Shown: piece by piece, positions 4,702 through 21,304 of the stretch | How positions within the stretch are numbered: position 1 is the stretch's first letter | Layout of the letters: each line of letters opens with the position of its first letter | Source: a virus | Virus record (IMG/VR): IMGVR_UViG_3300021963_000021 | Coordinates: 1-64,000 of that record | Direction: 5' to 3' (one strand) | Length of the DNA: 64,000 nucleotides | Program-made: the position numbers and the translations under genes | Notes under the pieces: model-generated | The model's input: the letters and a program-made list of their open reading frames with translations, nothing else | Databases searched by the model: none | Told to the model about the DNA's origin: nothing

Positions 4702-4729
4702 AAAAAAGCCCGCTTCGGCGGGCTTTTTT
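4702..4729 (+). terminator. Bidirectional intrinsic terminator
   Basis: GCCCGC (4708-4713), a TTCG tetraloop and GCGGGC (4718-4723) are flanked by A6 and T6. It serves the membrane-protein gene on + and the nucleotidyltransferase gene ending at 4728 on -. Confidence 0.93.
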
Positions 4730-5405
4730 ATTGGTCTATACTAAGCTCTTGATCCTGTAGCCTACGTATGCGATCTGCCATTTTATCTATAAGCCCTACA
4801 CGGCGTAGCTGCTTGAATACTAGATTTTCCACTGACCATTCTCCGGCACGAGCCAGTCCTGATTTGCGCATCTGTGTGATCTTGGTTTTCACACGTTCTA
4901 GACGATCTAGTTCGTTAGAGTCCAGTGCTTCGCCTATACCCCAGGCTAGACTCTGATACTTGGCACTCACAGCACGATCGTCTATCTTGGGTTTGGTCTT
5001 TGTGGGCACTGTGAGCCATTCATTTTTATTGATGCTGTATATGCCTGTTGAGTGATGTGGCTCATCTTCGCCCTGTACATAACACTCTACCGGTAGTCCG
5101 CGGACAGTGATTTCGTGTTCATCGCTCCACAGGCTCTTTTTAGCTGAATACAGTTCGCGTTCTTCTTCTGTGGGTATACCTGGAACTATTACATGTAGAT
5201 CTAGGTCTGAATACTGATTCCATGTGTAGTTGGCATTTGACCCTGTGACTGTGAGATCTACAACTTCTACCTCTACGCCTAGGAAATCAATGAATGCTTC
5301 TGCGATCTTGTGCAGTGCTTGATCGACATCGGGCTGTAGCTCAGTGCCATTCCAAATTTTTGGATTTAAGGTCTTGTTAACCGTGATTAGATCGCTGGCT
5401 CGCAT
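4728..5405 (-). CDS. Nucleotidyltransferase-superfamily protein
   Basis: A 225-residue protein with the pol-beta-type nucleotidyltransferase signature: Gly55-Ser56, then YSDLDLH at 65-71 with the metal-binding Asp pair. A third carboxylate may lie in LPVEC. The C-terminal third is helical and basic. Such phage proteins are usually annotated only as putative nucleotidyltransferase, and the substrate (protein, tRNA or antibiotic-like molecule) is unknown. It starts directly after the stop of the upstream gene and shares its MRA-x-(D/E)-(L/I) N-terminus. It lies behind a late promoter, so it may be packaged in the head (inference). Confidence 0.75.
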   Translation of the reverse strand: MRASDLITVNKTLNPKIWNGTELQPDVDQALHKIAEAFIDFLGVEVEVVDLTVTGSNANYTWNQYSDLDLHVIVPGIPTEEERELYSAKKSLWSDEHEITVRGLPVECYVQGEDEPHHSTGIYSINKNEWLTVPTKTKPKIDDRAVSAKYQSLAWGIGEALDSNELDRLERVKTKITQMRKSGLARAGEWSVENLVFKQLRRVGLIDKMADRIRRLQDQELSIDQ

Positions 5406-5789: not shown

Positions 5790-6049
5790 CCATTATTTAT
5801 CAGCCTAAGGTGTGTGCTGCGATATATGAATTCTTGGTCTACAACATCGTTGAATGTTTCTAAGACCAGCTGATTGATCTTGGTTTTTGGATCTACGTAA
5901 AGATAGCTCTGTGCGAGTTTAGCATCTAGATCTCGTATCCAACGACTGAGATCTAGACCAAGATGCTGTGCTGCTTCAGCCCAGGCTATTTTAAACTCTT
6001 TGCTGGTAGTGTCTGTCCACTGATATAGTATGTGCTTGTTACACTTCAT
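5771..6049 (-). CDS. Unknown protein downstream of helicase
   Basis: A 92-residue soluble protein, beginning MKCNKHILYQWTD, with alternating aromatic and acidic residues. It overlaps the helicase gene by 11 bp at its start and the next gene by 19 bp at its end, so it is translationally coupled within the replication operon. Family not recognised. Confidence 0.65.
   Translation of the reverse strand: MKCNKHILYQWTDTTSKEFKIAWAEAAQHLGLDLSRWIRDLDAKLAQSYLYVDPKTKINQLVLETFNDVVDQEFIYRSTHLRLINNGCEQKK
5794..5801 (-). promoter_or_regulatory. Late promoter box GATAAATA, 4 nt from ATG
   Basis: On the minus strand GATAAATA is followed by ATGG and then by the ATG at 5789. The box lies inside the 3' end of the upstream gene. 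Confidence 0.65.
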
Positions 6050-7469
6050 CGCTAGAACCCAAACCGTTAATAAACTGCCTTAGTTTGGTTGATTCTACGA
6101 TTGCCTTGACTTTGCCTACTTCTACGCCTTTAGTGGGATCCTGTACGACCCCGTCATCATCTACTACTGTGCTGTTACGACTTTTGATTTGAGAAATTAT
6201 GCTTGAACTACGTTGTGAGCCTGCTTCATCTGATTGTTGATCTTCTGGAAGATCTGCGATACGCAATGTATCAATGTTGAAATCTAGATCTAGTTTTTGT
6301 CCAACACCACTGCTACTACGTGTCTTCATTAACTGGATCTGATAACGACCACGTTCACGCATAGCACGGCTTGTAAAGATACCAAACACGTTATCCGCAG
6401 TTTGAATCTTACTTAGACCACCTGAAATGTGACTGTGATCGAATTCTACTTCTTCTACAGCGCCACGATTCAACTGTGCGGCTGTGACCAACAATACCTG
6501 TTTTTCCATAGCCAAGTTACGCAATTCTTCTGACACATACTTGTCTTTGATAAACAGATTTTCTGCGGAGATCTTTTTACCTATGGGCATCAATAAGTCC
6601 AAATAGTCAACTAAAAGTACGTCTACTTTCTTGCCCATTTGTATTTCATATTCTTTTAGATACGCACGAATATCGTTGGTAGTTTTACCCGATGGCATGT
6701 ATTTGACCTGGAACATACCTGACTTCTTGCCTACTAGTTTGACTTTCATTTCAACATCGTCAATGTTCTTAAAAATGTCTTTGGTAGTCACACCTGTAAG
6801 CATCGAGTCAATACGCATAGATACCAGTGCTTCTGAAAGTTCTAATGTAAGGTACACAACATTAAGACCCATCGTAGCCCAGTTAACACCTAGATTGGCT
6901 AAGAACAAAGATTTGCCAGCACCAGATCCACCTGCCCAAATATTCAGTTCGCCTCTGTTCATACCACCAAACAGTTTACGATCCAAAGTACTCCAACCTG
7001 TAGATACCTGCCCGTTCTTGTCTTTGAGTCCCATCAGTCGTGCTCTAGGATCAGCAAAGTAGTTAGTACCCATGTCTCGAGCAAGGCCGATCTGTACAGC
7101 TTCTTTAACCAGTGCTTCTACCTGTCCGTAGTCTTTCTTTTCTAAAAGATCTGCTGATTTAATAATCGCACGTTCTAGACTCTTATGACGAGTAAACTGT
7201 TCAAAGTCATCTAAGAACCAATCCATGTGGCCGTCTTTGAGTTCACCTGGATGTGCTAGTTCAGTCTTACAGGCCGCATTGACCATGTTATATTCTGGCA
7301 GCACAGAATATTGCTCTGCGTATTGATGTACGAACTCTGCTGCTTCTTGTAGTTTGCGATCAAATAATGTGTGATCAAAAATGCCTTGGCAACGCACAAA
7401 TGTTTCTGCGTCAGCTAACATTATTTCAAGATAGAGTTTTTGTACGTCGTAGTCGTATTCTTTTATCAT
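6039..7469 (-). CDS. gp41: Replicative DNA helicase (T4 gp41/DnaB type)
   Basis: A 476-residue hexameric 5'-3' helicase of the RecA/DnaB fold. The N-terminal helical domain spans residues 1-130. Walker A is GGSGAGKS at 180-187, Walker B VLLVD at 284-288, with downstream QLNRG and ISGGLSKIQTADNV segments typical of the family. The length matches T4 gp41 (475). It unwinds the lagging-strand template and partners with the primase encoded just upstream. TATAAT lies 6 nt before the ATG with TTGTAA 17 bp further up, and no Shine-Dalgarno sequence is visible. The Asp/Ser-rich C-terminal tail is of unknown role. Confidence 0.95.
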   Translation of the reverse strand: MIKEYDYDVQKLYLEIMLADAETFVRCQGIFDHTLFDRKLQEAAEFVHQYAEQYSVLPEYNMVNAACKTELAHPGELKDGHMDWFLDDFEQFTRHKSLERAIIKSADLLEKKDYGQVEALVKEAVQIGLARDMGTNYFADPRARLMGLKDKNGQVSTGWSTLDRKLFGGMNRGELNIWAGGSGAGKSLFLANLGVNWATMGLNVVYLTLELSEALVSMRIDSMLTGVTTKDIFKNIDDVEMKVKLVGKKSGMFQVKYMPSGKTTNDIRAYLKEYEIQMGKKVDVLLVDYLDLLMPIGKKISAENLFIKDKYVSEELRNLAMEKQVLLVTAAQLNRGAVEEVEFDHSHISGGLSKIQTADNVFGIFTSRAMRERGRYQIQLMKTRSSSGVGQKLDLDFNIDTLRIADLPEDQQSDEAGSQRSSSIISQIKSRNSTVVDDDGVVQDPTKGVEVGKVKAIVESTKLRQFINGLGSSDEV

Positions 7470-8426: not shown

Positions 8427-8512
8427 TTATAGATAAAAGGATCGCGCTTACGCAGTTCACGTATCCTTCTCCTGTACTTGATATAATTGATTAACTTTCT
8501 AAATAAGTTCAT
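8423..8512 (-). CDS. 29-residue basic micro-protein
   Basis: The frame reads MNLFRKLINY, then a run of Arg/Lys, and ends RELRKRDPFIYK. It is linked by four-base overlaps (ATGA) to the primase gene upstream and the carbamoyltransferase-like gene downstream, which is strong evidence that it is translated. The sequence is an amphipathic, very basic helix with a conserved-looking RKRDPFIY end. It could bind RNA, DNA or membrane. I recall similar tiny proteins in T4-like aquatic phages, without a known function. Confidence 0.7.
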   Translation of the reverse strand: MNLFRKLINYIKYRRRIRELRKRDPFIYK

Positions 8513-9504
8513 TTAACTTTTCTCTCGAACTGCTTCATATATAGATTTATCTTGATAGCACCACTGACAGCAGTATTCATGGCATCTACCATAACAAACA
8601 ATTTTCCGTATTTTGCCACAGCATCTGCGCAGTCTTTGACATCCGCATCCCAATTAGGAAATGCCACATGCCAATCATACTTTAATGCGTCTTTGATTAG
8701 ACTAGCACCTGCTCGATCTTGATCAGGAATAACAATCACAGTCTTACCTAGTTTGTTAATCAATCTTGCTTGTTCTTCTGATATCTCGTTGTGTAGTAGT
8801 GCTAGTCCTTGTACAGCAAGAGCATCAAATGGACCTTCTACAACAAATACATACTCTTGTTCTTGTGTAACACTATCCATGTTAAACACAAAATGCGGCT
8901 GTTGTTCACTGAGATATTTTGGCTTGCCTTCTTTGATCTTTCTGGCAGTCCATCCTACTATTCTTCCTGTGTATTTGAACGGTATGATTACACGCTCATC
9001 CATGCCATCTAAAGGACTCCAATAATATTCGCCTAATGGATCAATGCCCCTGCCAACAAGATAGTTAACTACGTTTGCTAGTTTTTGATCAGTATCTGCG
9101 TCCAGTTCTTGATCAATCCATTCGCTTAACAATAGACTACCTTCTGGTAAAGGTTTATCTGGAAATACTACTAGCTCTCTTTTTTGTTCTTTTACTTCAG
9201 GAGCTTCTGCTCTAAGAGCTTCGAATACCATCTTGTTGATATCGTCTTCAGGAGCACCTAACCAACGCATGAAGTTTTTTAGTTTTTGACCGATCTGTCT
9301 GCCTGGTTTCCAACTGGCTGTATATCCGCAGTTGAAACAGTTAAAGACTAGTCCTTCAGAAAATATCACACCACCACGTTGACGATTGTCTGCGGTATGC
9401 CCTCTATGATGACAACAGGGAGCATTGAAGCTAACCCATCCACTGGGTGTTTTTTTGCTTCGATGCGGTAAATGTTGTTTGAATATATCGACTACCAGAC
9501 TCAT
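8509..9504 (-). CDS. gp61: DNA primase (T4 gp61 type)
   Basis: A 331-residue primase. The N-terminal zinc-binding domain has CCHH at 30-33 and CFNC at 56-59. The TOPRIM catalytic core carries Glu223 in VVEGPFDA and the D-x-D pair in IPDQDRAG (261-263). The length equals that of T4 gp61 (342). It makes RNA primers for lagging-strand synthesis with the gp41 helicase encoded downstream. A TTGACA-17-TAAAAT promoter ends 6 nt before the ATG and no Shine-Dalgarno sequence is visible, so the message is probably leaderless. Confidence 0.95.
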   Translation of the reverse strand: MSLVVDIFKQHLPHRSKKTPSGWVSFNAPCCHHRGHTADNRQRGGVIFSEGLVFNCFNCGYTASWKPGRQIGQKLKNFMRWLGAPEDDINKMVFEALRAEAPEVKEQKRELVVFPDKPLPEGSLLLSEWIDQELDADTDQKLANVVNYLVGRGIDPLGEYYWSPLDGMDERVIIPFKYTGRIVGWTARKIKEGKPKYLSEQQPHFVFNMDSVTQEQEYVFVVEGPFDALAVQGLALLHNEISEEQARLINKLGKTVIVIPDQDRAGASLIKDALKYDWHVAFPNWDADVKDCADAVAKYGKLFVMVDAMNTAVSGAIKINLYMKQFERKVK

Positions 9505-10325: not shown

Positions 10326-10697
10326 ATGAGAATCAGCGAGCACTTACAACAAAACTTCCCATTTATCACAGTGATCACGTATGTGGATCAGGAATTTGTG
10401 GGCATAATAATAAATCAAGACGCACAAATAACCAGTATCTACGACTATTCTAGTTTAAAGACAGAATCTGAAAAACAGAAGTTTTTAGAGCTTGGTGAAG
10501 TTTGGTGGTGGGAATCAAATAGACAGATTCCTATTAACATTTTCTTATCTAAAGAAATGTATGAATTCCGATACATTATAAGGAATTTTACAACCAAAGA
10601 TGTAAAGGTCTTGTTTGGACCAGTTACAAGTCTAAATGATATTATGACCAAACGAGTGAAAAGAAAAAGTATCACTCTTATTCGCAAAGCAAAATAG
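10326..10697 (+). CDS. Unknown protein
   Basis: A 123-residue protein with alternating beta and helical segments (ITVITYVDQEFVGIIINQDAQITSIYDY) and a basic C-terminus. The only likely promoter is a TATAAATA box 47 nt upstream. No Shine-Dalgarno sequence is obvious. It is an isolated plus-strand gene whose stop abuts the stop of the convergent DnaE-like gene. Family not recognised. Confidence 0.65.
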   Translation: MRISEHLQQNFPFITVITYVDQEFVGIIINQDAQITSIYDYSSLKTESEKQKFLELGEVWWWESNRQIPINIFLSKEMYEFRYIIRNFTTKDVKVLFGPVTSLNDIMTKRVKRKSITLIRKAK

Positions 10698-11267
10698 TTA
10701 CTGAAATCCGTAACTTATTGTTTCACATATTAAGTTCATCTGTACCACCACCGCCGTAGCATAGGCAATAGCATGTGACTTCTTAAAGAAGTATTCATCG
10801 CTGGCAGGCTTTACCCACACCTCGTCTTCTACATCTTTCCAGCTCTTCCCTATCAAATGCCTCTTTGCTGGCCTGATCATAGCCAGTACTGCCGCAAGCT
10901 GCGGAATTGTTTTCGGCTTCATTGTTCTTAAGATAGAACCATGTCCGTTGACGTGAAAGAGCATACTGCTGAAATCGTCTTGTTCGAGTAAATCCCATAA
11001 CGGCTCCGTGTTCATTAGAATTTCTAAATGCTCTTCTGAGCGTACCTCTTTGTAAATTCCAACGTTTAAAAAATCAATCTTGAAGTAGCCTTGATCTTCC
11101 GCTTCTTCATAGGGAATAGCACATAGACCTGTCGGAGCATGTACAGGAACAGTATGTAGATATACACCTGTGTTGTGTACAGCCATATCTTTGCGACTAG
11201 CCTTGATATGTTTAATATGTGCTAGTGCTTGATTTCTATCAGCAAAGTCTATGTCTATGTCTGGCAT
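10698..11267 (-). CDS. Miniature DNA polymerase III alpha (DnaE)-like protein
   Basis: A 189-residue protein carrying, in order, signatures of C-family polymerases. PDIDIDF at 2-8 matches the palm motif with the first two catalytic Asp residues. YFKIDFL at 61-67 matches the (V/C)KFDFLGL motif with the third catalytic Asp. SMLFHVNGHGSILRTMKP...AAVLAMIRPA at about 101-134 matches the FQ.ES.GM..LL..LKP...ALYRPGP region. FKKSHAIAYATAVVVQ at 161-176 matches FNKSHAAAYA...YQ. Full DnaE is about 1160 residues. The PHP, most of the fingers and the beta-binding and OB domains are missing. It ends a UvsW/clamp-loader operon. It could be a degenerate polymerase, a decoy for the host clamp or a novel nucleotidyltransferase. 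Confidence 0.7.
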   Translation of the reverse strand: MPDIDIDFADRNQALAHIKHIKASRKDMAVHNTGVYLHTVPVHAPTGLCAIPYEEAEDQGYFKIDFLNVGIYKEVRSEEHLEILMNTEPLWDLLEQDDFSSMLFHVNGHGSILRTMKPKTIPQLAAVLAMIRPAKRHLIGKSWKDVEDEVWVKPASDEYFFKKSHAIAYATAVVVQMNLICETISYGFQ

Positions 11268-11497
11268 TATTGTAACCTTGTGGTTTCAAAAAGTAATAAC
11301 GGTAGTGTGTCTTGTAAAAATTGTGCGTATTCTTCTGCGTCTTCGAAATCTTCAAAGCCTGTAAATTTTAGATATACAGCTGGTTCCTCTTCGCCTACTT
11401 CGATTTCAATGCCTATGTCATCTCTTGAAATAAATTCTTCGTTTTCTTGTAGTTCTTCTACTTCAACTTCTACCTGCTCAGTTTTCTTTTTTGTCAT
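11267..11497 (-). CDS. Small highly acidic protein
   Basis: A 76-residue protein with about a third Glu plus Asp, beginning MTKKKTEQVEVEVEEL. It shares one base with each neighbour (TAATG junctions), so it is tightly coupled between the zinc-finger protein and the mini-DnaE-like protein. The acidity suggests a protein partner or DNA mimic, but nothing specific can be assigned. Confidence 0.65.
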   Translation of the reverse strand: MTKKKTEQVEVEVEELQENEEFISRDDIGIEIEVGEEEPAVYLKFTGFEDFEDAEEYAQFLQDTLPLLLFETTRLQ

Positions 11498-12171
11498 TAA
11501 GGCACCTTGGCTTCCTTTAGAACCTCTTTCACTAGCTCAAGATCGCCTGGAGCACTTTTAAATCTGCGACTCCAGTGGTCTGGGTCTAGCATAGGAGATA
11601 CTATTTCTATTTGTTCGTTATTTAACTTGGTAAGCATCTGTCGACCACTTTTACAGTTTAAAATAAACCAAGGACTTACCAATCCTTCTTTTATATGTTT
11701 AGTTGCTCTGTTTAAATTTACATACAAAAAATAATGTTCCCATTGTGCTGAATTTTCTTCAGCCCATTCTAACATTGTAGTCATGGTTCGTTGTATAGCA
11801 CCATCTGCTGGCTCAGTCTTTATTAGCTCAGTGATATAATGATCATACAATTCATCACGACACCAATGATCTAATTTTATTCCACTACGAATAACATAGT
11901 CAATAAATCTCTCTGGATATACAGGATTAGCATTGACTAAAAAACTACCAAATTTTACAAAAGCGTTATAGTATGGGCTTTCTACGAACTCATCGAAGTT
12001 TTTGTGTTTGCCCTTTTGAACCAAATCATAGAATTTTTGATAAGCAATTAACGCAGCCTGTACATGTTTTTCATTGCGACTGAGATGGCGTCTTTTCTTT
12101 TCGCAGATATGTACAGCCAGAGTTTTTTCTCTAGTAAAGTCTTTACCGCAATACACACACTGATAGGTCAT
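11497..12171 (-). CDS. C2H2 zinc-finger protein of the replication operon
   Basis: A 224-residue protein with an N-terminal C2H2 finger (CVYCGKDFTREKTLAVHICEKKRRH, Cys5, Cys8, His21 and the following Cys/His) and a long helical remainder. Similar proteins sit beside UvsW and clamp-loader genes in T4-like aquatic phages and are annotated as hypothetical. It overlaps the gp62-like gene by ATGA. A DNA- or RNA-binding replication accessory role is inferred. Confidence 0.65.
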   Translation of the reverse strand: MTYQCVYCGKDFTREKTLAVHICEKKRRHLSRNEKHVQAALIAYQKFYDLVQKGKHKNFDEFVESPYYNAFVKFGSFLVNANPVYPERFIDYVIRSGIKLDHWCRDELYDHYITELIKTEPADGAIQRTMTTMLEWAEENSAQWEHYFLYVNLNRATKHIKEGLVSPWFILNCKSGRQMLTKLNNEQIEIVSPMLDPDHWSRRFKSAPGDLELVKEVLKEAKVP

Positions 12172-13246: not shown

Positions 13247-13749
13247 AATATTTTATCAAGTTGTATTACTTCGCTTTGTCTAGAAATTTCTTTTACGAAA
13301 TAGGCACATGGCGGATTAGGACCTTCACGCAACGGCACTGTTAGTAATTGATTATTTTTCATCTTTGGAAAATACCATTTAACATCCTGATAGATGTTTA
13401 CAATTTCCACTGATGCGTATTCTACTTTGAATCCTTTAATAGGATTAAACAGCATAGCATCAAATCCACGTTCATTGATACTGGTCAATGGCAATACTTC
13501 CGGATCCATTCCGCAGTCTTTGTCCCCAACTAGCATAGCCCAATCCAATGGCATTTGTACTTCATACCCGCCAATCTTTAATACGATGGCCGGCGAATTA
13601 AATGATTCCAGGAAGATAAGTGGTATAAAAAAGAAATCAGGTTCTGTAGGATTAGAATTATCTAATACCGAAAACCGTGTGTCATCTTCTATTTCTTCTG
13701 GTAGATCGTTTAAATCAAACGATTTATTTTCTAATGTTAGTATTCTCAT
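13243..13749 (-). CDS. Unknown conserved protein next to UvsW
   Basis: A 168-residue protein beginning MRILTLENKSFDLNDLPEEIEDD with a central, strongly patterned segment, DWAMLVGDKDCGMDPEVLPL, followed by FDAMLFNPIKGF and VKWYFPKMKNNQLLTVPL. The gene starts inside the stop of UvsW (ATGA). It resembles a hypothetical protein commonly beside uvsW in aquatic T4-like phages. No function can be assigned. Confidence 0.7.
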   Translation of the reverse strand: MRILTLENKSFDLNDLPEEIEDDTRFSVLDNSNPTEPDFFFIPLIFLESFNSPAIVLKIGGYEVQMPLDWAMLVGDKDCGMDPEVLPLTSINERGFDAMLFNPIKGFKVEYASVEIVNIYQDVKWYFPKMKNNQLLTVPLREGPNPPCAYFVKEISRQSEVIQLDKIL

Positions 13750-15203
13750 ATTGTTACCTTGGTTATATTGAAAGGATATTGAGCATCCTTGTAAAATTTC
13801 TTGCGTTCTGTTAAGTGGCGTTTAGCGTATTTGGTGCCGCCTGTTATGTCCCAAATCTGTACAAAATCTTTGTCCTCTGCTTTGCGAATACCTCGTCCTA
13901 TGCTCTGTATGACCCTTACAAAAGATTTGCCAGGTTCAATAAGTATAAGATTAAAAATGCGAGGAATGTTAATCCCCACGGCGGCAACACCATAAGTAGC
14001 AACAATGATCTTATCATCCACAGATCGTACTTCATCGTATGTTTCTTTCCTGTCTTTGGTTTTTACAGATCCGCTAATAAAATCTGCTTCTGGTAATCTT
14101 TCACATAACATTTTGCCTGTTTCGATTCTATCAATTAATACAAGCGTGTTTCCTGTAGCAGCAATGTTTTTAATTTTATTAGCTATCCAATCAACTCTTT
14201 CGGAATCAGTTACTAGATATTTTAATTCCTCAGGATATGACCGGAACTCTTTGATTTCAATAGTCTGTAATACTTCAACGTGACACTCTGCCAACACACC
14301 TTTTTGTTGTAGATCGTGAGCAGAGATACTGTTAATAACTGGCCCTATACTGGCTAACAGACTTGTAAATTCAAATTTTTCTTTAGGAATAGTTCCTGTC
14401 AACCCCCAACGTATTGGGCAATTTGCTAGATCTCTAGTGAGAATATTTTTTAATACTTCTGCTTTGGCTTGATGTACTTCGTCGACAATGATAGCAGCAA
14501 CGTCTTGAAAAAATTCCGCCAATGTCAGCAGTTCAGGATCGTCTTTGCTTTTCTTATCTAATACATTAAGACTCTGCCAAGTACAGATAGTGTGTATTTT
14601 TCCTAGTTCTTTGCGGTCGCCGTAATACACACCTACATCTAGTCCAACGGTTCTAAAATCTTCTTCTGTCTGTTCAACTAACGACTTGTTAGGAACGATA
14701 ACGATAGATCTTCCATATTTTTCACAACAGTGACTTAGTGTAGCAGTGGTAATAGTTTTACCTGCTCCTGTGGCAATTTCTTGAAGGCATTGCGGATTTT
14801 CTAAAAACTTGTTAACAGCATCATATTGATAGTCACGCAGTATAATCGGCTGTCCTTCTGCCGGGTGTCCCTTGGGCCAAACCTTACCTTTGTCTGCCCA
14901 ATAGGTTTCTGTGACCTTAGTGAACTCTAGACTTACCGAAGACCTATGATCTTCGAATTCTACATCATAACCGTCTTTAGTGACGATATCTAATATCTCT
15001 GGTAAGTGGCACATATAGCCTGTACCGCCTATGCCAAAGAAGGCAACAGTACCATCCCAACGTCCGAGACGATAGGAAGGTTGATATCTAGCCCACGGAA
15101 CGTCAATCTTAAACTTGTTGGCTAACTTTCGTCTAGTTTCTAGTGCCAACCCTTCGAATTTAATGTTTACTTCATCTTTTATTATTAGTTTACAATTCGA
15201 CAA
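13746..15203 (-). CDS. uvsW: UvsW-type DNA/RNA helicase
   Basis: A 485-residue superfamily-2 helicase. Residues 1-110 form the N-terminal domain. LRDYQYDAV (about 122-130) is the Q-like motif, ATGAGKT (144-150) Walker A, DEVH (241-244) motif II, LTGT (268-271) motif III and QSIGRGIRK motif VI. T4 UvsW (about 500 residues) regresses stalled forks, resolves Holliday junctions and unwinds R-loops to shut off origin-dependent replication. It overlaps its upstream partner by 14 bp and its downstream one by 4 bp. Confidence 0.93.
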   Translation of the reverse strand: MSNCKLIIKDEVNIKFEGLALETRRKLANKFKIDVPWARYQPSYRLGRWDGTVAFFGIGGTGYMCHLPEILDIVTKDGYDVEFEDHRSSVSLEFTKVTETYWADKGKVWPKGHPAEGQPIILRDYQYDAVNKFLENPQCLQEIATGAGKTITTATLSHCCEKYGRSIVIVPNKSLVEQTEEDFRTVGLDVGVYYGDRKELGKIHTICTWQSLNVLDKKSKDDPELLTLAEFFQDVAAIIVDEVHQAKAEVLKNILTRDLANCPIRWGLTGTIPKEKFEFTSLLASIGPVINSISAHDLQQKGVLAECHVEVLQTIEIKEFRSYPEELKYLVTDSERVDWIANKIKNIAATGNTLVLIDRIETGKMLCERLPEADFISGSVKTKDRKETYDEVRSVDDKIIVATYGVAAVGINIPRIFNLILIEPGKSFVRVIQSIGRGIRKAEDKDFVQIWDITGGTKYAKRHLTERKKFYKDAQYPFNITKVTI

Positions 15204-16461: not shown

Positions 16462-17277
16462 ATGGAAAGAAAAATTGCCGTAGTCACTACATTCAACGAT
16501 CGTGGGCGTATTCAGTATGCTCAAAAAATGATAAACAGCTTCTGCCAAAATTGGCCTAAAGAAGTAACACTATATCTGTACCCTGAGGACACAAATCCCC
16601 AGGTTCCAGCCCATGATAGAATACGTCTTGTGGATCTTGGTACTGGAGTACCGGACCTAAAAGCATTTAAAGACAAATGGAAAGACGTACCTCATGCCAA
16701 TGGCGACATTTCTGGCGTCCCAAGACTGGCATCTAGAAAAGACAGCCATAAACCATTCAAGTGGGATGCGGTAAGATTCGCACATAAAGTGTATTCTATA
16801 TTTCATTGTGCTAAAAATTGTGATGCTGACGTGTTGATATGGATGGATGCTGATATGGTTTGCCATAGCCCTATTACTTTAGAAAAAATCAACGAAATGA
16901 TTCCAGAAGGTGCTGATCTTTGTTATCTAGGAAGGAAGGGCAAGTTCTCAGAATGTGGCCTGTATTCAATGAATCTACGATCTCCTATGGTAAAAACGTT
17001 TCTACAAGAATTTCAAAGAATGTACGACGACGCAGAGCACGGAATTTTTTATCTTGACGAATGGCACGATAGTTTTGTGTTCGATGCTGTCAGACAAAAA
17101 ATGCCATTTCTACAACAGGTAGATTGGAGCAACGGAATTATCACCGGAGAAGGCCATCCGTTAATTAACAGCAAATGGGGTGCCTATCTTGACCATCTCA
17201 AAGGTGACAGAAAAGCTCAAGGCAAGAGTCATTTGAAAGATTTAAAAGTAAAAAGACAAGAAGCATACTGGCAATGA
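16462..17277 (+). CDS. Glycosyltransferase, GT-A type
   Basis: A 271-residue cytosolic protein. The N-terminal Rossmann half begins RKIAVVTTFNDRG. WMDADMV at about 131-137 is the D-x-D metal/nucleotide-sugar motif of GT-A enzymes. The segment after it (CYLGRKGKFSECGLYSMNL, FYLDEWHDSFVFDAV) is acceptor-side. The nucleotide sugar is unknown. It heads a six-gene, mostly overlapping plus-strand operon that starts from a late box, so the glycan it builds is made late. Confidence 0.75.
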   Translation: MERKIAVVTTFNDRGRIQYAQKMINSFCQNWPKEVTLYLYPEDTNPQVPAHDRIRLVDLGTGVPDLKAFKDKWKDVPHANGDISGVPRLASRKDSHKPFKWDAVRFAHKVYSIFHCAKNCDADVLIWMDADMVCHSPITLEKINEMIPEGADLCYLGRKGKFSECGLYSMNLRSPMVKTFLQEFQRMYDDAEHGIFYLDEWHDSFVFDAVRQKMPFLQQVDWSNGIITGEGHPLINSKWGAYLDHLKGDRKAQGKSHLKDLKVKRQEAYWQ

Positions 17278-17882
17278 TATTAGATACACAACCAAAAACT
17301 TTTGTAATCGCAATTAAAGGACATCCCATTAGCGAAAAACAACTCCAAGAATGTTTAGATACTGCTAAAGCATACAACTGGAGTGTAGAAGTGTTTTGGG
17401 GTGTAAATGGCAAAACAATTACACCAGAAACTTGGCTTTCGGAAGGTCTAACTCCTAGATTAGATAAACCAACAATGGGCTCGCTTGGTGTACAAGGTTG
17501 CTTTTTGAGTCATTATTCGTTATGGAAACGTTGTGTAGAACTCAACGAACCTATCATCATTTTTGAACACGATGCGTTGATCCAAGGCAACTGGATTCCT
17601 ATAAATTTAGACAACGCTGTGGTAAAATTACATAGATATTACAAGCCAAAAAATCTTAAATTTGATGATGACTCGGGTCTATGGTCTCCATCGGGGCATG
17701 CCTATTGTATTTCTCCAACACACGCAACAATTTTAATTAATTTTGTAAAACAAGTAGGTGCGTTTGAAGTAGATAGGGTGTTAGGTGATAAAGTTATACC
17801 AGTAATACACCTAGGAAAGCCTTCATTAGTCGAAAGACAAGATTCTTATTCAACAACAAATAATTTAGAGGAACACCTATGA
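17274..17882 (+). CDS. Glycosyltransferase family 25-like
   Basis: A 202-residue protein. GSLGVQGCFLSHYSLWKRCVELNEPIIIFEHDA is the GT25 pattern (G..GC..SH..LW..C.....P..I.E.DA), as in LPS and LOS galactosyltransferases. The usual E-D-D is EHD here. HAYCISPTHA is the GYA-type site. It overlaps neighbours by four bases on both sides. A second GT25 domain follows two genes later, so the two may act in sequence. Confidence 0.75.
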   Translation: MILDTQPKTFVIAIKGHPISEKQLQECLDTAKAYNWSVEVFWGVNGKTITPETWLSEGLTPRLDKPTMGSLGVQGCFLSHYSLWKRCVELNEPIIIFEHDALIQGNWIPINLDNAVVKLHRYYKPKNLKFDDDSGLWSPSGHAYCISPTHATILINFVKQVGAFEVDRVLGDKVIPVIHLGKPSLVERQDSYSTTNNLEEHL

Positions 17883-18499
17883 AAGAACCTAGAGTTGAGA
17901 ACAGAGAAGGATGGGTGTGGCCTGTTCAAGATGTAAAATGTTGGGAGTGGTTACAGGCTGAAAAAGATCTTCCTAACTTGATTTCTTCTTACTGTGCTAA
18001 TAAACGTGTAGTCGTACAGGCAGGAGGAAACTGTGGCTTTTATGTTAAACCCTATGCTCAGATGTTTGAGACCGTTTATACATTTGAACCAAATTCATTG
18101 AATTTTTATTGCCTAACTAATAATGTATGGGAAGGAAATGTTGTTAAAATTCAAGCCTGCTTAGGTGATTCTCATAATTCAGTTGGGTTAACTTATAAAA
18201 AAGTAAATTCTGGAGTGAGTAGAGTACACGGCGAAGGGATATTTCCCACTTTCAAGATTGACGACTTAGGTTTATCAAATTGTGACCTAATACATCTGGA
18301 TATCGAAGGCTACGAAATGTTTGCGTTAAAAGGCGGCATAGAAACCATCAAAGAATTCAAGCCAATAATTGCTTTAGAATGGCTAGATCATAATAATCAA
18401 TTTGGCATTAGCGCAGACGACATACTTAATTGGTTAACAGAGTTAGGATACAAAGAAATTGCTTCTTTATACCACGAAAAGGTCTTTTCAGCATCATGA
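17879..18499 (+). CDS. FkbM-family methyltransferase
   Basis: A 206-residue SAM-dependent methyltransferase. VVQAGGNCGFYVKPYA (about 40-55) is the SAM-binding motif I. YTFEPNS gives motif II, FPTFKIDDLGLSNCDLIHLDIEGYE the FkbM core, and KPIIALEW the end. FkbM enzymes O-methylate sugars or polyketides. Here the target is probably a glycan hydroxyl, given the flanking glycosyltransferases. ATGA overlaps join it to both neighbours. Confidence 0.85.
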   Translation: MKEPRVENREGWVWPVQDVKCWEWLQAEKDLPNLISSYCANKRVVVQAGGNCGFYVKPYAQMFETVYTFEPNSLNFYCLTNNVWEGNVVKIQACLGDSHNSVGLTYKKVNSGVSRVHGEGIFPTFKIDDLGLSNCDLIHLDIEGYEMFALKGGIETIKEFKPIIALEWLDHNNQFGISADDILNWLTELGYKEIASLYHEKVFSAS

Positions 18500-20016
18500 A
18501 ATCATTTATTATTCATTTATCAAAGATACCAGCTTCCTTAAAAACTGCGTTAGATGTTAAACAACAATTAGAGTCGTTTGGTATGGAAGCCGAACTGTTC
18601 GAAGGGTCGTACGGCAACGAAGTAAAAGAAAGATATGCCAGGGAAGGTCGTCGATATCATCCTTGGAATTTTAAAAATGGTCCTGAAAATCCGTTTCCTG
18701 AAGAATTTCGTGACAGCCAACAAAACCCAGGAGAAATGGGCTGCTTTGACAGCCATTATCGCTTGTGGGAAAAATGTGTAGAACTCAACGAGCCTATTTT
18801 AATTTTTGAAGATGACGTAATTTTTGAAAGACCATACCTTCCTGTAACATTTAATGAAGTATTGATTACAGTTTTTGGAAATTTAACCAAGTCAGCAAAA
18901 TATTTTCACTATTATACATCGCCGACTGGAGATCCTCGGGCTGAGTGGTACGGCCAGGCATCTATGCCAGGTACTCCGGGATATGCTATCAAACCATCGG
19001 CTGCTAAAAAACTTGTAGAAATGTATAAAAACACTTGGTTGCCATCAGACAATGCTATGATGATAAACATTGTAGGTATACAAGTACATAGTCATGTCAT
19101 GGGCAGAGCATTGATAGCCGAAGATGGCAAAAAATCATTGGTTCGAGGAAAAAATAATTTTTGGGGAAAGCAGGAAATGAAAAAGAAGGTGTTAATCACA
19201 GGTAACTCCGGATATATTGGCTCACATCTTACACAACTGTTAGTAAAAGATTCAAACATTGAGATACATGGACTAGATAAGAACGACCCGATAAAACCTG
19301 TTTCAAAATTTTTCCATAGAGACATTACACACGATACTGAATGGTATATTGAACACGAGTACGACTGTGTTATACATCTCGCAGCAGAAGTAGCTGTAGG
19401 AAGAAGTGTAGAAACACCAACATTGTATTATCAAACCAATACAATTGGTACACTCAATGTTCTTAAGAAAATAAAAACCAAGAGATTAGTGATAGCATCG
19501 ACAGGTGCTGCTGCGGGTATGGGAAGTCCTTACGGAATCAGCAAACGAGCTATGGAAGATATTGTTTTTGAATATTGTAAAACTCATAATATTCCATTTA
19601 CAATTTTTAGATTTTACAATGTTACCGGTAGCGACGGAATAGAACCAACTAATCCAGATGGGCTGTTTGCTAGCTTAATCGCTGCTACTAAGACTGGCAA
19701 TTTTACAATCTTTGGTAATGATTATAACACAGAAGACGGCACATGTATCAGAGATTATACACATGTCAATGAAATATGCCATTCAGTAGTCGAAGCAATA
19801 GATAAGTCAACTAATCAAATAGAAAATCTAGGGCACGGTGTTGGCACTAGTGTAACACAGATGGTAGATATCTTTAAAAGAGTGAACGGTGCTGATTTTA
19901 ATGTTACTATAGGATCTCGTAGAGAAGGTGATCTTGAAAGAAGCGTACTAACTAATCCTTCACCTTTTATGAAAAAACTTTATCCTATTGAAGATCTATT
20001 AACAATGAAAAAATAA
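18496..20016 (+). CDS. GT25 glycosyltransferase fused to NAD-dependent sugar epimerase
   Basis: A 506-residue two-domain protein. Residues 1-227 are a GT25 domain (GEMGCFDSHYRLWEKCVELNEPILIFEDDV with the E-D-D motif, and GTPGYAIKP). Residues 228-506 are a GalE-type short-chain epimerase/dehydratase: GNSGYIGSH for NAD, HLAAEVAVG, the catalytic YGISK, and RFYNVTG. The start at 18496 (MKSFIIHL) is chosen because it forms the ATGA overlap with the previous stop. There is no stop between domains, but an in-frame ATG at 19177 after GGGGAAAGCAGGAA could also yield the epimerase alone. Confidence 0.85.
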   Translation: MKSFIIHLSKIPASLKTALDVKQQLESFGMEAELFEGSYGNEVKERYAREGRRYHPWNFKNGPENPFPEEFRDSQQNPGEMGCFDSHYRLWEKCVELNEPILIFEDDVIFERPYLPVTFNEVLITVFGNLTKSAKYFHYYTSPTGDPRAEWYGQASMPGTPGYAIKPSAAKKLVEMYKNTWLPSDNAMMINIVGIQVHSHVMGRALIAEDGKKSLVRGKNNFWGKQEMKKKVLITGNSGYIGSHLTQLLVKDSNIEIHGLDKNDPIKPVSKFFHRDITHDTEWYIEHEYDCVIHLAAEVAVGRSVETPTLYYQTNTIGTLNVLKKIKTKRLVIASTGAAAGMGSPYGISKRAMEDIVFEYCKTHNIPFTIFRFYNVTGSDGIEPTNPDGLFASLIAATKTGNFTIFGNDYNTEDGTCIRDYTHVNEICHSVVEAIDKSTNQIENLGHGVGTSVTQMVDIFKRVNGADFNVTIGSRREGDLERSVLTNPSPFMKKLYPIEDLLTMKK

Positions 20017-20018
20017 TT

Positions 20019-20651
20019 ATGTCAGATAATTTAGAAGAAATATGGTCAAAGTCAATGGCCGAAAACAGTCAGCTAGGATTGGAATCTATTAGCGGTGTTG
20101 GCTCAACATTAAGATACACTGAAAATCTAAGAAAAGAATTGCCACATCTGATTGAAAAATTTTCTATTAAATCTATATTCGACGCACCGTGCGGTGATAT
20201 GAATTGGATGAATGTGTTTTTAAATGAGCACCCTATAAAATATATCGGCGGCGACATAGTTAATCAAGTAGTAGATAGTAATCAACAGTACACTAATAAT
20301 CTTACTAAAGTAGTGAAATTAGACATTACAACTGACCCGTTTCCTTCGGCAGATTTATGGATTTGTAGAGACTGCTGGTTTCATTTGCCAGATGAAAAGA
20401 TATTTTTATCTATTGATAATTTTTTAAAATCAGATATTAAATTTTTGTTGACTACTACACATATCAACACTGGATTTAATAATTCCGATTTAGCTACTGT
20501 TGGATTTAAATTAATAGATCTTTTTTCTTCTCCATATAATTTTCCAAAACCTTTATACAAAATTACAGACTACTACGGAAAAAAATTACCTAGAGAAATG
20601 GTGTTGTTTAGCAAAGAACAATTAGTAGCATGGAAAAAATCCCAAGAATAA
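20019..20651 (+). CDS. SAM-dependent methyltransferase (class I)
   Basis: A 210-residue protein with FDAPCGDMNWM (motif I, about 54-64), YIGGDIVNQVV (motif II) and ADLWICRDCWFHLPDEKI (motif IV). This combination resembles small methyltransferases in phage and bacterial glycan clusters. The target is unknown. The start lies 3 nt after the previous stop. It overlaps the following glycosyltransferase by 22 bp. Confidence 0.8.
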   Translation: MSDNLEEIWSKSMAENSQLGLESISGVGSTLRYTENLRKELPHLIEKFSIKSIFDAPCGDMNWMNVFLNEHPIKYIGGDIVNQVVDSNQQYTNNLTKVVKLDITTDPFPSADLWICRDCWFHLPDEKIFLSIDNFLKSDIKFLLTTTHINTGFNNSDLATVGFKLIDLFSSPYNFPKPLYKITDYYGKKLPREMVLFSKEQLVAWKKSQE

Positions 20652-21304
20652 TTTATTGTTTTTGGTTCGGGCCAGAAATGTCTGCTGATCGAGCTAGGTG
20701 CTTTCAAAGCATTACACAACACTCTAAAGTTGATGTAAAATTAATAACTGAGAACAATCTTAAAAATTATCTAACAACACCAATACACGACGGTTTCAAA
20801 TATCTAAGCTCAACTCATAAATCAGATTATCTCAGATCCTATTTCATGTATCATTATGGTGGAGGATACACTGATATTAAACAGTGCGATTTTGACTGGA
20901 ATCCTTATTTTGATTGTTTAGAAAACAGCGATAAGTCGTTTATCGGATGTCCGCAGTACAGCCCGAAACATATTGCTTATCGACCCTACAAAGAGTTTTA
21001 TAATGATCTTATTGGGTGTACTAATTTTATTTTTAAAAAACAATCAAAGTTTGGAAAACTTTGGTATGATCAAACAAATTATGTAATGGATTTAAAACTA
21101 GCTGCGTTAAAAAATAATCCAGGGACATATCATCATCGAGCGATTTTAGGTGGAGTACAAGGTATACCTGATATTTTTAATGAATCAAAATATCCGCTGA
21201 CTTGGAATGAATTACTGGGACAAATTTTTCATAAACTTCAATACGAAAATCGTGAAGATTATATGATTGGAACACCGTTCCCAAATATAGAAAATTATCG
21301 CTGA
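20630..21304 (+). CDS. GT32-type (DXD) glycosyltransferase
   Basis: A 224-residue protein. IPRIIYCFWFG at the start, HKSDYLRSYFMYHYGGGYTDIK (about 63-84) and the terminal TYHHRAILG are the signature of GT32/capsular-polysaccharide glycosyltransferases. The usual D-x-D is D-I-K here (GGGYTDIKQCDF), so the metal site may be shifted. It is last in the plus-strand glycan operon and overlaps the convergent gene's 3' end by 10 bp with no terminator between. Confidence 0.8.
   Translation: MEKIPRIIYCFWFGPEMSADRARCFQSITQHSKVDVKLITENNLKNYLTTPIHDGFKYLSSTHKSDYLRSYFMYHYGGGYTDIKQCDFDWNPYFDCLENSDKSFIGCPQYSPKHIAYRPYKEFYNDLIGCTNFIFKKQSKFGKLWYDQTNYVMDLKLAALKNNPGTYHHRAILGGVQGIPDIFNESKYPLTWNELLGQIFHKLQYENREDYMIGTPFPNIENYR

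Follow-up and report, generated by a model that had tools for sequence, protein, structure and literature searches.

The window analysed here, the first 64 kb of a virus record of 364 kb (a jumbo phage genome), carries on its minus strand a gene whose 189-residue product is a real and conserved homologue of the catalytic core of DnaE, the alpha subunit of bacterial DNA polymerase III. We refer to this product as the C-half. The gene, its motifs and the neighbouring genes are listed below, with the number of loci sharing each neighbour counted over 72 loci that are 15 kb or longer.

10698-11267, minus strand: C-half of a split minimal DnaE (C-terminal half), with the catalytic palm strands and shortened fingers; 189 aa, ATG start, PHROG 11778
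11244-11264, minus strand: PDIDIDF, residues 2-8, aligned to E. coli DnaE 399-406 (hhalign)
11166-11177, minus strand: HNTG, residues 31-34, at the place of KHAGG, a motif C-terminal to the thumb in DnaE (hhalign)
11073-11081, minus strand: K63-I-D65 within FKIDFL, equivalent to E. coli K553 and D555 (hhalign)
10869-10874, minus strand: R132-P133, of the RPGP motif of the fingers, invariant in 108/108 (hhalign)
10758-10787, minus strand: FKKSHAIAYA, residues 161-170, equivalent to the FNKSHxAAYA motif of DnaE (hhalign)
10326-10697, plus strand: phrog_11637 gene of unknown function, convergent with the C-half gene; 71/72 loci
11497-12171, minus strand: C2H2 zinc-finger-like protein (phrog_11058), upstream of the C-half gene; 71/72 loci
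8509-9504, minus strand: DnaG/gp61-like primase, in the C-half operon; 71/72 loci
6039-7469, minus strand: open reading frame where annotated relatives have their gp41/DnaB-type replicative helicase; 72/72 loci
13746-15203, minus strand: UvsW-like helicase, heading the syntenic block; 64/72 loci

An initial annotation of this open reading frame had noted core signatures of DnaE, and both the frame and the motifs are as it described: PDIDIDF, YFKIDFL (residues 61-67), the LFHVNGHGSILRTMKP...IRP block and FKKSHAIAYA follow each other in the same order as in DnaE. The alignment places D3 and D5 on E. coli D401 and D403 (hhalign), which together with D555 have an established catalytic role in the E. 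coli enzyme. That the three catalytic aspartates are kept, as had been suggested, is borne out by the invariance of D3, D5 and D65 in all 108 distinct C-half sequences, along with D7, H31, G34, P41, K63, Y72, W91, I131, R132, P133, K135, F161, K162 and H165. A candidate beta-clamp-binding motif, QMNLI (residues 176-180), was rejected, as it sits within a long helix aligning to a DnaE helix with a similar YQTLWLK.

The relationship to DnaE is visible at the level of profiles. The C-half belongs to PHROG 11778, annotated as 'DNA polymerase' (E 3.1e-64), and matches phrog_405, the full-length phage DnaE family, with an E-value of 3.1e-7. Profile-profile alignment by hhalign against nine DnaE proteins, the kind of check that the initial annotation had called for, matched it to residues 399-778 of E. 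coli DnaE (E 4.6e-6, Prob 86.5). Searches with the single sequence gave only sub-threshold C-family matches in Pfam and NCBIfam (the Pfam fingers family at E 0.069, under the cut-off) and, with phmmer against the PDB, no match. The AlphaFold2 model of the C-half, built from 49 sequences, has a mean pLDDT of 91.3 and contains the palm strands at residues 4-8, 30-36 and 64-68; its top 15 Foldseek matches in the PDB are all C-family polymerases (best E 0.004). For the halves described here the Foldseek probability reaches 1.00 with modest E-values, which is expected since the queries are fragments.

Nucleotide binding requires the GRGS motif, which the C-half does not have: a second gene, at another place in this genome, encodes it. 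The earlier suggestion of a 'minimal nucleotidyltransferase', taken as self-sufficient, is therefore not supported. The second gene lies ~181 kb from the window gene:

192115-192597, minus strand (of the 364-kb genome): N-half of the split DnaE, with GRGS and the initial segment of the palm; 160 aa, PF07733, PHROG 11127

It is the only match in this genome to PF07733, the DnaE palm family (E 8e-13), which does not hit the C-half gene, and its PHROG 11127 match has an E-value of 1.6e-40. A GroES-like gene and a gp44 clamp loader are found near it. The annotated jumbo phages Phosso, Atu_ph07, PAC2 and RaK2 likewise have their PF07733 match in a separate protein of 169-177 aa belonging to PHROG 11127; a pattern search of viral contigs that started from the N-half of Phosso gave no relatives, which reflects the limit of such a search. 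GRGS is invariant in 57/57 distinct N-halves. The active site is thus complete in neither half alone, with GRGS on the N-half and the three aspartates on the C-half. The AlphaFold model of the N-half, made on a 67%-identical relative, reached a pLDDT of 82.1, and its top 10 Foldseek matches in the PDB are all C-family polymerases (best E 0.085). Taken alone, the model has no beta strands; folding of the N-half may depend on its partner, or the model may be mispredicted.

The two proteins abut in DnaE almost to the residue. On the phrog_405 profile the N-half occupies positions 362-436 and the C-half positions 442-454, 578-678 and 779-809, in collinear order. Alignment of the N-half to the nine DnaE proteins (hhalign, E 6.7e-9) is firm from about residue 319 of E. 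coli DnaE and ends near 397, while the C-half starts at 399, and profile searches of the PDB concur (319-394 for the N-half, from 399 for the C-half). Between them the halves account for the palm and a portion of the fingers. The C-half has no counterpart to the thumb (about residues 422-505 of E. coli DnaE) nor to a stretch of the fingers (about 642-740). At the sensitivity of the profiles, neither the two proteins nor their own genome contain a PHP, thumb, HhH, OB or C-terminal domain; across five genomes the phrog_405 profile gave, beyond the halves, one weak match, in Phosso (E 0.01). Joining of the chains by an intein was ruled out, since only 2-7 residues follow the last conserved residue of the N-half in 57 distinct sequences, and with no intein-like extensions the joining, if any, must be non-covalent.

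The halves travel together. Both are encoded by all five jumbo phages checked at first (the genome studied here, Phosso, Atu_ph07, PAC2 and RaK2) and by 9 of 11 further long records, the remaining two being contigs of 280 and 169 kb, maybe incomplete, with one half each. The C-half was found by tblastn in 90 GenBank phage records and the N-half in 87 (E < 1e-12), with near-equal counts per host genus and at least 63 accessions common to the two lists; a first scan of IMG/VR added at least 549 relatives of the C-half. Hosts include Pseudomonas, enterobacteria, Rhizobiales, Vibrio, Salicola and Alishewanella. One of the nine records with both halves is the 141-kb genome of Alishewanella phage Slickus01, so the pair is not confined to genomes above 200 kb. 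Fused or adjacent halves were found in none of 241 loci, and in these the two were never within 6-8 kb of each other; this distance, with the genes not sharing an operon, weakens any claim of stoichiometric co-expression. Both halves are under purifying selection (median dN/dS 0.08 for the C-half over 140 pairs and 0.12 for the N-half over 15 pairs). A scan of bacterial and archaeal genomes returned only two close relatives, on MAG contigs of probable phage origin, and one distant match in Glycomyces. Two contigs binned as archaeal, one under Natrialbaceae and one under Pacearchaeota, encode a C-half with 52-53% identity, and the Pacearchaeota assembly has the N-half as well; these are probably mis-binned phage contigs.

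The replication setting that had been proposed for the window gene is supported by its neighbours, the UvsW-like helicase before it and the primase and the gp41-like helicase after it. Of the 'UvsW/gp62-like operon' named in the initial annotation, the UvsW part stands and the gp62-like part finds no support among the neighbours scanned. The zinc-finger-like protein of phrog_11058 may be a functional partner of the C-half. Two further features of the window were noted, namely a 225-aa open reading frame apart from the C-half gene (4728-5405, minus strand), in which a GSNANYTWNQYSDLDLHV motif recalls those typically seen in pol-beta-like nucleotidyltransferases, and, on the strand opposite to the replication operon (16462-21304, plus strand), a run of open reading frames that by eye resemble glycosyltransferases, methyltransferases and sugar epimerases.

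The genome also has an intact family B polymerase (PolB), a 904-aa frame with DLNSLYPS and YGDTDS motifs (PF00136, E 4e-37). In Atu_ph07 (NC_042013.1, about 212-214 kb) PolB lies in two open frames of 418 and 578 aa, so that both polymerases are split in this phage; in PAC2 (PP408249.1, 203-207 kb) the PolB match spreads over two frames of 825 and 379 aa, ~2.5 kb apart, perhaps because of an intron or homing endonuclease. A DnaQ-like exonuclease domain (PF00929) passed the cut-off in 3 of 9 genomes and in the genome studied here none was found, and a minimal alpha-epsilon core as a constant feature was therefore rejected.

What would the two halves do then? Homology to DnaE and the split itself are firmly supported; as to function, the C-half and N-half most likely assemble into a small auxiliary C-family polymerase. 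The N-half would bring GRGS and the first part of the palm, while the C-half would be the catalytic half, and the chains would associate without covalent joining, rebuilding the palm and part of the fingers with one complete active site. This site would be shared across the chains, with GRGS coming from the N-half and the three aspartates, the KxD, RP and FKKSH motifs coming from the C-half. Because the thumb, PHP, HhH, OB and clamp-binding tail are missing, the pair should be distributive or dependent on partners. Its synthesis of DNA would be short-range, as in gap filling, in repair, at recombination intermediates or on the lagging strand, beside the intact B-family polymerase. A bolder reading, which we think unlikely as a whole, is that the pair is a working two-chain polymerase of palm and fingers near the smallest size possible for the C family, that it could come from a lineage which branched off ahead of the extra domains of the full bacterial enzyme (the ancestral reading of Iyer et al., 2021) instead of being a cut-down host gene, and that it may serve a dedicated step beside PolB, such as gap filling or strand-specific synthesis.

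Without a thumb, binding of the primer-template may be poor, and so the activity could differ from polymerisation. The halves might assemble with the active site kept and catalyse something else, for example template-independent nucleotide addition, synthesis of short primers or RNA, or nucleotidylation of a different molecule, reactions that losing the thumb and the DNA-binding domains would have opened up. Such a role would agree with an active site that is invariant even though the thumb and all the C-terminal DNA-binding domains are gone, and with bulk replication having its own intact PolB. However, the finger motifs RP and FKKSH are also kept and invariant, and the genes sit among replication and recombination genes; we regard catalysis other than templated DNA synthesis as rather unlikely.

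Next comes a non-catalytic mimic: bound to partners of host Pol III or to the replisome of the phage, one or both halves would serve as decoy or scaffold. The partner-binding parts of host Pol III could in principle be imitated, and other replication proteins are encoded nearby. DnaE, however, binds the clamp, tau and epsilon via its C-terminal and PHP domains, and these are the very parts that are missing here. A decoy would not need invariant metal-binding aspartates and a GRGS motif in separate co-occurring genes; the host Pol III decoy suggested in the initial annotation does not predict catalytic residues that are invariant over such a pair, and we consider it improbable. The suggestion of a fossil fares worse: decaying remnants of a former full-length DnaE would account for the large deletions relative to DnaE, but not for the low dN/dS of both genes (about 0.08 in the C-half) and the invariant catalytic residues, nor for their retention, with a constant split point, in phages of all the hosts named above, from Pseudomonas to Alishewanella, and it is very improbable. 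Chance or convergent likeness to DnaE motifs, for which the non-significant single-sequence searches of Pfam and the PDB might be invoked, can be dismissed given the profile-level matches, the predicted fold, for which every top hit is a C-family polymerase, and the existence of a partner gene for exactly the neighbouring region of DnaE. The initial annotation is supported in the homology to the DnaE core, the aspartates and the neighbourhood, but not in self-sufficiency or the fossil; it rested on one half of the system, with the partner missed.

If the assembled polymerase is active, giant phages which already hold a T4-type polymerase would be maintaining a DnaE-type enzyme trimmed to about 350 residues and divided across its active site. 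Such an enzyme would offer a compact, tractable system for the catalytic core of the C family, on which the need for the thumb and PHP domains could be tested, and a direct route to why these phages keep two polymerase families. We found no experimental test of whether the halves join or make DNA in the literature covered by our search, outside of which lay most subscription papers and preprints.

Compared with E. coli DnaE and bacterial PolC, the phage pair has the same order of palm and finger motifs and the same key residues (D401, D403, D555, K553 and GRGS). Full-length DnaE is, however, one chain of 1160 aa, in contrast to two chains of together about 350 aa in the phage, which lack PHP, thumb, part of the fingers, HhH, the clamp-binding region, OB and the C-terminal domain. 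A split DnaE is also known from cyanobacteria, where, according to work cited in PMC3919608, two distant genes encode parts joined by a split intein; the distant genes are common to both systems, whereas the phage proteins have no intein and form a minimal core. Parts of the phage system have been reported singly. In phage CBB, CBB_328 was described, that half alone, as a 'truncated' Pol III alpha (PMC5259590); this protein of 172 aa is the N-half of the present system, and the CBB genome encodes the C-half too. The earlier genome paper on Atu_ph07 similarly noted the N-half alone, as a Pol III alpha subunit.

The pair as a whole was recognised from sequence in 'group 2.2' jumbo phages as a split minimal Pol III alpha (Iyer et al., 2021; PMC7824862). 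In that description two distantly encoded proteins, the N-terminal one for NTP binding and the C-terminal one for Mg2+ and template binding, occur alongside a family B polymerase; the authors suggested that the pair makes one of the strands or takes part in repair, and that its origin is ancestral (PMC7824862). Nothing essential differs here: the genome has a standalone C-half, an N-half elsewhere, PolB and no other Pol III alpha domains matched by the phrog_405 profile, and Atu_ph07, placed in group 2.2 in that paper (PMC7824862), belongs to the present family. By its sequence, then, the window gene is one half of an already known, conserved two-gene minimal C-family polymerase. To the 2021 description our analysis adds the junction at the level of residues, the invariance counts, the dN/dS values, the occurrence of the pair in a phage of 141 kb and the inconstancy of the DnaQ-type exonuclease.
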